NCBI RefSeq assembly: GCF_000221185.1 | Contig: NC_015865.1 | Coordinates: 1,798,001-1,862,000 of the forward strand | Reading direction: 5' to 3' | Length of the DNA stretch: 64,000 bases | Source of the DNA: Thermococcus sp. 4557 | Lineage (GTDB): Archaea > Methanobacteriota_B > Thermococci > Thermococcales > Thermococcaceae | Shown here: one piece after another, positions 28,731 through 31,645 of the stretch | Numbering within the stretch: the stretch's first letter is position 1 | How the letters are laid out: each line of letters begins with the position of its first letter | Notes under the pieces: model-generated | The model's database searches: none | The model's input: only the letters and a program-made list of their open reading frames with translations | What the model was told of the DNA's origin: nothing | Made by a program: the position numbers and the translations under genes

Positions 28731-29586
<856 letters not shown>

Positions 29587-29625: not shown

Positions 29626-30270
29626 ATGGTCAAGCTCATAGCCTTCGATCTTGAGGGAACCCTGGTCAAATCCATTTCCAGCTGGGTTGAACTCCACAAG
29701 CGCTTTGGAACCTGGGAGAAGGGAAAGGAATACGCCGAGCTTTTCTTTGAGGGAAAAATAGACTACGTGAAGTGGGCCGAGCTCGACGCCTCTCTGTGGA
29801 AGGGCCACACCAGGGAAGAGATCATGGAATGGGCGAACTCGGTTGAGTACATGGATGGGGCCAGGGAGCTCATCGAGTTTCTTCGGGAGAACGACTTCAG
29901 GATAGCGATACTCAGCAGCGGTCTCATGTGCCTGGCTGGAAGGATTGCGAGGGAACTTGGGGTTGACTACGTCTTCGCCAACGAGCTGATATTCGACGAG
30001 AACGGCGTCGTCACGGGAAAGGTCAACCCCCTCGTTGACTTCAAGAGCAAGGGGACGATACTCAGGGAGCTGAAGGCGGAGATTGAACCCGAGCTGACGG
30101 TGGCGGTTGGAGACGGCTTCAACGACCTGAGCATGTTTAAAGAGGCCGACGTCAGCATAGCGATAAACCCGCACGAGGGTGTCGAGGGCGACCACAACGT
30201 TGAGAGCCTCCACGAGGTCATGGAGATAATAGCGGGACTGGTGGGGGAAGGGGCTGAACGGGGTCGGTGA
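29626..30270 (+). CDS. HAD-superfamily phosphatase, phosphoserine phosphatase-like
   Basis: 214 residues. Motif I is DLEGTLV at 8-14: the nucleophile Asp8 is present but the second acid is Glu10 instead of Asp. Motif II ILSSGL, motif III Lys (FKSKGT) and motif IV GDGFNDLSMF follow the PSP pattern. PSP-like members of Thermococcales often show this DLEGT form. It probably hydrolyses a small phosphate ester, with phosphoserine possible. Confidence 0.78.
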   Translation: MVKLIAFDLEGTLVKSISSWVELHKRFGTWEKGKEYAELFFEGKIDYVKWAELDASLWKGHTREEIMEWANSVEYMDGARELIEFLRENDFRIAILSSGLMCLAGRIARELGVDYVFANELIFDENGVVTGKVNPLVDFKSKGTILRELKAEIEPELTVAVGDGFNDLSMFKEADVSIAINPHEGVEGDHNVESLHEVMEIIAGLVGEGAERGR

Positions 30271-30332
30271 AGGGCGTGTTCATCACGCCCGCCCGTGGGG
30301 GCGGTCTCAGCAAAGCAAAAGCTCCTCATTCC

Positions 30333-30397
30333 CCTGTCGGCCCGGCCGGAATCCCCGCCTCACTCCTCCGCGGGGTGGGCGGACGCCGGGCCGGCGG
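30333..30397 (-). ncRNA. H/ACA box guide RNA candidate
   Basis: On the minus strand a single GC-rich hairpin ends in an ACA box (complement of 30335-30337). Its lower stem is nine perfect pairs (30385-30393 with 30338-30346), an internal loop of 9 and 6 bases follows, then a 6-bp upper stem (30370-30375 with 30353-30358) capped by an 11-base purine-rich loop (GGAGGAGTGAG) that could form the K-loop. The upper stem is 15 bases from the ACA, the rule for archaeal H/ACA guides. A TTTTAAG promoter-like run at 30417-30424 suits a start near 30395. The target uridine is not identified. Confidence 0.6.
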
Positions 30398-30436
30398 TGG
30401 CTTCTCCGCGCGGGAGCTTAAAAGTCTAACCCCGAT

Positions 30437-31645
30437 TCACAGCCCTGCAACCTTGAGCTGTATCCACCAGAAGATATCGCCCCAGAAGTAGCTTATCAGG
30501 AAGCCCAGGAAGAGCGCCGGGGCAAAGGGCATTGACTTTTTCCTTAGGAATGAGTTTTCAAGCCTTCCCTCCTCCACGAGGCGTTTAAGCTCTTCTATCT
30601 GCTCTTTCCTGAGACCCTCCGCGGAGGATGATGCAATAACCCTCCCGTAGTCGGGCCGGAGAAGGGATGGGTCCGCGGAGGTGACGGCGTTCTTGATGCG
30701 TGTGAAGAGGTCGTCTCTGTCCCTGCCAATTTTTCCGTCCCTCTCGAATACTGTTTCCCCAAGTATATCCCACTCTTCAAGCGCTTCGACGGGCACTTCT
30801 TCCATCAGGACGCTCCTTCTCATAAACTTCACAAGGGAGAAAAACACCTTGAACAGGTACAGCACGGCGAGGAGCTTTAGGAAAGCCCTTGCCATCGGCA
30901 GCGGGTCGATGTACAGGAGATACATCAGAACGGTTATTCCAATGACATCCCCGACTTTTCTGAACTTGCCCAGGACGTATATCACCGCCACTGTGAGGAT
31001 CCACGACCAGATTCCGGCTATGACCACTCCCGTCGTTTCGTAGATCATCAGCCGGAGGCCCAGGGCGGCCATTATCCAGAGGGCAACCTCAGCGGTCAGC
31101 CGTGCCCTGTCCGTGAATATCTTTCTTAGCTCCTCGAACTGCTTTCTGGCGATGATCACGCCGAAGGAGTAGATGAATATGAACGGGAAGATCGCTATGA
31201 TGCTGTTAAGCAGCACGGTCAGTGGATAGAGCGGGTAGCCTATGGCATAGGGAGGCACCATTGACGCGGTCGAGGGCGGGTAAGGGAGCAGTGCGGAGAA
31301 TCCGGCCAGTATCACGGCGTCGCCGCTGGCCCAGGCGCCGATGTAATAGAGCAGCAGGCCCAGAATAAGGCCCAGAATAAGCCCCAGAATCCCGGAAACG
31401 GCGAGGATAGTGTTGTGCTGGGTGTGGAGTCCCTGGTAGAGGTAGTAAAGTATGCCGACCTCGACGGCGGGGATTGGTATCCTGTCGAGGAGCCCCTCGC
31501 TTTCCTCACTCTCCCATCCGAGAAGCTTTCCGATGAGTGCAAGGGTTGGAAAAATGTGTATATCATCTATGAATCCCGTTTTCATATCGGTATACGAAGT
31601 AACGACTCCCATAACCAGTCCCAGAAGAAGGGGAACGTATTCCAT
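30437..31645 (-). CDS. archaeal prepilin peptidase (A24 family, EppA/FlaK-like)
   Basis: 402 residues with several membrane segments. Catalytic aspartates fit the A24 family: Asp20 in SYTDMKTG and Asp109 in GAWASGDA. The long hydrophilic insert (about 285-370) and a C-terminal membrane helix are extra to the core. It cleaves class III signal peptides of pilins. The 55-residue pilin-like gene lies 9 bases upstream on the same strand, so it likely processes that substrate class; assigning EppA rather than FlaK type is inference. Confidence 0.82.
   Translation of the reverse strand: MEYVPLLLGLVMGVVTSYTDMKTGFIDDIHIFPTLALIGKLLGWESEESEGLLDRIPIPAVEVGILYYLYQGLHTQHNTILAVSGILGLILGLILGLLLYYIGAWASGDAVILAGFSALLPYPPSTASMVPPYAIGYPLYPLTVLLNSIIAIFPFIFIYSFGVIIARKQFEELRKIFTDRARLTAEVALWIMAALGLRLMIYETTGVVIAGIWSWILTVAVIYVLGKFRKVGDVIGITVLMYLLYIDPLPMARAFLKLLAVLYLFKVFFSLVKFMRRSVLMEEVPVEALEEWDILGETVFERDGKIGRDRDDLFTRIKNAVTSADPSLLRPDYGRVIASSSAEGLRKEQIEELKRLVEEGRLENSFLRKKSMPFAPALFLGFLISYFWGDIFWWIQLKVAGL

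Follow-up and report, generated by a model that had tools for sequence, protein, structure and literature searches.

The minus-strand RNA encoded at about positions 30393-30260 of the window, that is, the whole analyzed stretch of 64,000 nucleotides of the Thermococcus sp. 4557 genome (NC_015865.1, 1,798,001 to 1,862,000), is very probably the ortholog of Pyrococcus abyssi Pab21/sR9 (RF00065), produced as one short transcript from its own promoter. It is a composite RNA, with an H/ACA guide in the 5' half and a box C/D guide in the 3' half, and represents a new, slightly altered member of an already known family. The first-pass annotation, made from the letters alone, had placed an H/ACA guide candidate at 30333-30424; the H/ACA hairpin within this span stands, and the 3' half of the RNA had been left out, given that the box C/D RNA runs on to about 30260.

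Family membership

The first-pass annotation had suggested that the hairpin might match a small RNA known from Pyrococcus and had named a covariance-model search as the check. In a permissive cmscan of positions 30200-30500, the RF00065 (snoR9) model was matched over its positions 1-87 with 75.1 bits (E = 1.2e-17), below the gathering score of 90 bits, and the suggested Pyrococcus RNA turned out to be Pab21, snoR9 in Rfam. A second RF00065 piece, at the C'-D end, scored 18.2 bits (E = 0.036) in the same scan; at the gathering level, the scan of the window returned 5S rRNA only. The match falls into two pieces because it is interrupted by the 21-nt spacer between boxes D' and C', and it is split likewise in G039 and G044, which also have long spacers. 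The ortholog in G016, with an H/ACA module identical to that of the window and a short spacer, has an RF00065 score of 107.1. Four further long-spacer orthologs (G026, G029, G038 and G040) score 91.6-99.5 bits and thus pass the cut-off, so that the spacer explains the sub-cut-off score only in part. The window RNA is therefore best described as an ortholog by descent and by place, and not as a member of RF00065 by Rfam's own cut-off. In practical terms, the guide RNA annotated here is missed by the default cut-off of Rfam in this genome and in its close relatives G039 and G044.

RF00065 unites Pab21 and sR9 of P. abyssi, which form one transcript in that organism (PMC4652768, in excerpt), and the RF00065 match that we obtained in G004 (230449-230575, minus strand) has the coordinates given for P. 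abyssi snoR9/Pab21 in the same excerpt. Both a C/D part and an H/ACA part are described for sR9 (PMC2241582, in excerpt), and P. abyssi Pab21 RNPs reconstituted in vitro pseudouridylate their substrate (PMC3726423, in excerpt). The window RNA is like these in the order of its parts, in sequence, in the K-loop, the ACA box and both C/D guides; it differs in the D'-C' spacer, which is 21 nt long with a predicted hairpin, compared to 5 nt in P. abyssi Pab21/sR9, in box C (ATGAGGA), in box D (CCGA) and in the score under the Rfam cut-off. HgcE/Pab105, HgcF/Pab35, HgcG/Pab40 and Pab91 belong to the same guide class but are distinct RNAs; HgcE itself was found elsewhere in the Thermococcus sp. 4557 genome and in other genomes. 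HgcF was dropped as a family match because it reached only 9.3 bits, on the plus strand.

The H/ACA module

The H/ACA module (30335-30393; like all parts of the RNA, on the minus strand) is delineated by the RF00065 match, the alignment of orthologs and covariation. The 5' strand of the lower stem, CGGCCCGGC (30385-30393), pairs perfectly over 9 bp with the 3' strand, GCCGGGCCG (30338-30346), and the ACA box (30335-30337) follows directly. Above this stem lies the pocket-like internal loop, formed by the 5' pocket (30384-30376), with the 5' guide strand GTCCGCCC at 30377-30384, and the 3' pocket (30352-30347), with the 3' guide strand TTCCG at 30347-30351. The 6-bp upper stem, in which CCCCGC (30370-30375) pairs with GCGGGG (30353-30358), carries a K-loop-like apical loop, GGA-GGAG-UGA-G (30359-30369), in which GA and UGA, the presumed binding site of L7Ae, show no variation among 43 distinct orthologs. 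By sequence, tandem G-A pairs of a K-loop stand on the upper stem, and the GA stem, set against the 10 pairs or layers sought, comprises six Watson-Crick pairs, one G-G, two G-A and a possible A-A layer.

Exactly 15 nt (30352-30338) separate the ACA box from the pair that closes the pocket. Other Pyrococcus H/ACA guides have a lower stem of 7-9 bp and an ACA box 14-16 nt from the upper stem, and the same excerpt (PMC4652768) is the source of the 14-16 nt rule applied here; with 9 bp and 15 nt, the window RNA lies within both ranges. Hence, sequence and structure bear out the archaeal H/ACA geometry claimed in the first-pass annotation, including the perfect 9-bp stem, the pocket-like loop and the upper stem 15 bases from ACA.

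The box C/D module

The box C/D module (30260-30334), the sR9 ortholog, was recognized by RF00065 and by the pattern of the D' and D guides. It is closed by a GGGG/CCCC stem (30334-30331 with 30263-30260) and contains, in order, box C (ATGAGGA, 30323-30329, one mismatch to RUGAUGA), the 11-nt D' guide GCTTTTGCTTT (30312-30322), box D' (CTGA, 30307-30310), the 21-nt D'-C' spacer (30286-30306), box C' (TGATGA, 30280-30285), the 10-nt D guide CACGCCCTTC (30269-30278) and box D (CCGA, 30264-30267, one mismatch to CUGA). All four boxes and the closing stem of a box C/D RNA are thus present, with a single deviation in each of C and D. The spacer is predicted to form a 6-bp hairpin (30304-30299 with 30294-30289). 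Pyrococcus C/D guides reportedly have a K-loop at C'/D', to go by the title of a 2005 paper by Nolivos. The window RNA shares boxes C, D', C' and D and two guides with them but, unlike them, bears the predicted hairpin in its C'/D' loop, so that the K-loop would become an ordinary K-turn.

Promoter and genomic neighborhood

A TATA-like box, TTTTAA (30418-30423, minus strand), begins 30 nt ahead of the H/ACA stem, the fitting distance noted in the first-pass annotation. Of the 61 intact parsed orthologs, 57 have a TATA-like hexamer that begins 26-32 nt ahead of the stem, compared to 1 of 61 with such a hexamer anywhere in a 50-nt control stretch downstream.

The neighbors of the RNA are a prepilin-peptidase-like gene (30437-31645, minus strand) and a HAD-like phosphatase gene (29626-30270, plus strand), both named from their translations rather than by family search, and box D (30267-30264) is opposite the final codons of the phosphatase gene. 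The same two neighbors, in the same orientation, flank 47 of the 62 intact orthologs and 18 of the 22 tested orthologs without an H/ACA half. Between these two convergent genes, the unit has the opposite orientation in 5 intact orthologs (L056, L057, L058, L067 and L080, in G019, G020, G021, G033 and G072, respectively) and in 4 without the H/ACA half (L047, L046, L049 and L050, in G001, G041, G067 and G093); relative to the window, these orthologs are flipped in place. In G030, where one neighbor was detected, the intact unit is probably inverted as well. Neither neighbor was detected beside the RNA in the 9 Pyrococcus (g3) members, including P. abyssi. The window also contains a 5S rRNA gene (28733-28854, plus strand), about 198 kb from the 16S-23S operon (genome positions 1623996-1628761).

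Folding, covariation and rival readings of the hairpin

Folding energy proved uninformative as a test of the hairpin alone (z = -1.57, with 16 of 200 shuffles equally good); extended to all 134 nt of the RNA, the same test gives z = -2.40, with 5 of 200 shuffles doing as well. The minimum-energy fold of the single window sequence pairs the upper part otherwise, with the 5' guide concealed by the alternative upper stem. The alignment fold of the orthologs, in turn, reproduces the proposed H/ACA structure. Covariation was evaluated with the 43 distinct sequences among the 61 intact parsed orthologs, in which the 15 H/ACA pairs form in 97.2% of the cells. Nine of these 15 pairs show changes on both sides, compared to a mean of 4.3 in shuffles, of which 1 in 500 reaches 9, and to at most 2 when the partners are slid; one of the five covariation measures, further pair types, is unremarkable (reached by 120 of 500 shuffles). 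Because of the RF00065 homology and the covariation, rather than the energy, which by itself is unconvincing, we hold the hairpin to be real and not a product of chance.

A GC-rich hairpin arising by chance, or serving as the terminator of the upstream prepilin-peptidase-like gene, would be in keeping with the unremarkable energy and with the location of the GC-rich stem 43 nt downstream of the stop codon of that gene. The conserved family, the compensatory changes, the GA/UGA loop and the ACA box leave this reading with a negligible probability; covariation rules out the terminator, and the finding that 5 or 6 of the 62 intact orthologs have the unit inverted, with the two flanking genes as before, does not suit such a role. 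A different possibility is that the C/D half alone works in Thermococcus sp. 4557, with the H/ACA half a decaying remnant, as could be suspected from the 23 of 85 orthologs in which the H/ACA half is lost or decayed and the C/D half kept (see below). However, the lower stem in the window is a perfect 9 bp, the GA/UGA, ACA and UUCC guide residues of the window match invariant or nearly invariant columns, and the nearest relatives in the rpoB tree (G014, G016, G023, G039 and G044) keep the hairpin as well, so we regard a remnant as very unlikely and a two-part guide RNA as the appropriate description.

Predicted rRNA targets and proposed function

The base methylated under the direction of a box C/D guide is picked by the fifth-nucleotide rule. 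The D' guide is a full complement of 23S positions 204-214 and the D guide of 23S positions 52-61, and the rule, applied to these exact complements, yields 23S G207 and G55, respectively, as the predicted methylation sites. Among 3000 random 14-mers from the window, 20 reach an 11-nt match and 78 a 10-nt match. These predicted C/D targets appear better supported than the H/ACA target, 16S U867, which we hold with moderate confidence.

The H/ACA pocket is somewhat more likely to address 16S U867 (context GGAA-UU-GGCGGG, in the numbering of the 16S rRNA of this genome) than any other uridine. In a first, gapless scan with the window pocket, this site was outside the six best, the neighboring 16S U868 took second place if A30352 was included in the pocket, and U867 was third with a P. 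abyssi-like pocket. Once 1-2 unpaired guide bases were permitted adjacent to the upper stem, by a rule added after this first scan, U867 emerged as a site for all 61 intact parsed orthologs and ranked first for 44; its score is reached by 96 of 300 shuffled pockets for the window and by 30 of 300 for P. abyssi. A 23S target in Thermococcus sp. 4557 instead is possible but distinctly less probable: with the window pocket, 23S U1583 (29.0) and U1066 (27.0) score higher than 16S U867 (24.5), and they take the top rank in 14 and 2 of the 61 orthologs, respectively, to be set against the recurrence of U867 in every intact ortholog. Furthermore, the base 3' of the Pab21 target uridine is itself a U (PMC3726423, in excerpt), which favors the U867-U868 pair and does not fit U1583 or U1066, each of which is followed by A. 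S922 is described as a site common to two guides (PMC4652768).

Most likely, Cbf5-Nop10-Gar1 and L7Ae would bind the stem, the ACA box and the K-loop of the H/ACA half, and the pocket would hold the rRNA stretch in which one uridine, preferentially 16S U867, is converted to pseudouridine. The C/D half would direct fibrillarin to 2'-O-methylate 23S G207 through the D' guide and G55 through the D guide. Genes for Cbf5 and Nop10 are present in the genome of Thermococcus sp. 4557, and we infer that the RNA is expressed and active in this organism, just as we infer precisely which uridine it addresses and where it directs methylation.

Distribution in Thermococcaceae

RF00065 was matched in 83 of the 94 Thermococcaceae genomes (59 above the cut-off) and the exact two-guide C/D pattern in 84, with no matches for the reversed control; the union of the two gives 85 genomes with an ortholog. 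Nine genomes yielded neither match (G003, G034, G045, G046, G050, G052, G055, G063 and G083); seven of these are just 73-94% complete, and G034 and G046 are 98-99% complete. A looser pattern hit 4 places in three of the nine, none of them sR9-like by eye. In G034, a single contig of 1.52 Mb, neither half could be convincingly traced, although both are present in G015, its sister genome by rpoB; G034 may have lost the RNA altogether. Under strict filters, RF00065 was not matched in any of 21 further genomes from the phylum; among 14 control genomes, that of Methanocaldococcus jannaschii yielded a sub-cut-off match. Second, weak RF00065 matches of 26-28 bits in three genomes (G068:C24:14554-14666, G069:C3:268856-268969 and G093:C6:14233-14355) are perhaps other guide RNAs.

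Apparent repeated loss of the H/ACA half and variation of the spacer

Conservation of the stem in relatives, which together with expression the first-pass annotation had named as the touchstone of its candidate, was found in most of the family: the H/ACA hairpin is kept in 62 of the 85 orthologs and lost or decayed in 23, all of which retain the C/D half. Of these 23, the genus of the window accounts for 6, g4 for 12, g2 and g5 for 2 each, and g6 for 1. Intact and lost hairpins were told apart by reading the parser table, with no fixed cut-off: G013, G060 and G059 were kept as intact with 7 lower-stem pairs, and G091 and G056 were called decayed despite 7 pairs, given that their upper part is missing or disrupted. 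The hairpin of G072, which carries ACG instead of ACA and escaped the parser, is counted among the 62 intact orthologs and not among the 61 parsed ones.

In a tree of the rpoB domain (93 sequences of this one gene; G035, with no rpoB match, was left out), four losses are nested inside the genus of the window: G066 beside the intact G051 (support 98), G056 beside G060 (99), G041 together with G067 (100) beside G068 (81), and G054 and G064 grouped in a clade alongside four intact genomes (97). In g5, the 5' part of the hairpin survives in both G091 and G092; in G092, the remainder is gone, and G091 has a lower-stem remnant with ACA. Parsimony requires 9 changes of the H/ACA state, or 8 without the misplaced G010, with three g2 outgroup genomes that do not form a clade; in g2, g4 and g6, the absence of the H/ACA half could reflect either loss or ancestral absence. 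The genes for Cbf5 and Nop10 are present in the three tested genomes that lack the H/ACA half (G079, G001 and G041). G010 is a fragmented assembly, in which the rpoB fragment groups with g4, another genus, and snoR9 is Pyrococcus-like; it is possibly a mixed assembly.

The D'-C' spacer measures 3-5 nt in 76 of the 85 orthologs and 15-22 nt in nine (G000, G026, G029, G038, G039, G040, G044, G054 and G064). The nine fall in two separate parts of the rpoB tree, with G014 and G016 inside one of these parts without a long spacer, a distribution that takes 4 changes by parsimony. The spacers of G000, G039, G044, G029, G040 and G064 fold into hairpins of 5-7 bp, and the hairpins are weak in G026, G038 and G054. 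None of the nine is clearly better than shuffles (z from -1.58 to +1.11), and we rejected the spacer hairpin as a demonstrated selected element because it folds no better than many shuffled sequences.

We see about an even chance that the modules of this composite guide RNA are in flux: the H/ACA half would have been lost on several independent occasions, with the C/D half retained, and the C'/D' K-loop would have been extended by a hairpin, into a K-turn, more than once. If so, the guided pseudouridine would be dispensable in the lineages that lack the H/ACA half, or made there by another guide. Such a distribution lends itself to a natural experiment, in that a single predicted rRNA pseudouridine is expected to set relatives that carry the H/ACA half apart from those that do not, provided that no other guide makes the mark. 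In the open-licence papers searched, we found neither the spacer hairpin nor a recurrent loss of the H/ACA half described; read from sequence as they are, the H/ACA losses and spacer lengths would be modest additions to the identification of the RNA. In L106 (G054) and L200 (G064), both of which lack the H/ACA half, the C/D RNA starts directly after the apparent stop codon of the prepilin-peptidase-like gene, and it may depend on the transcript of that gene.
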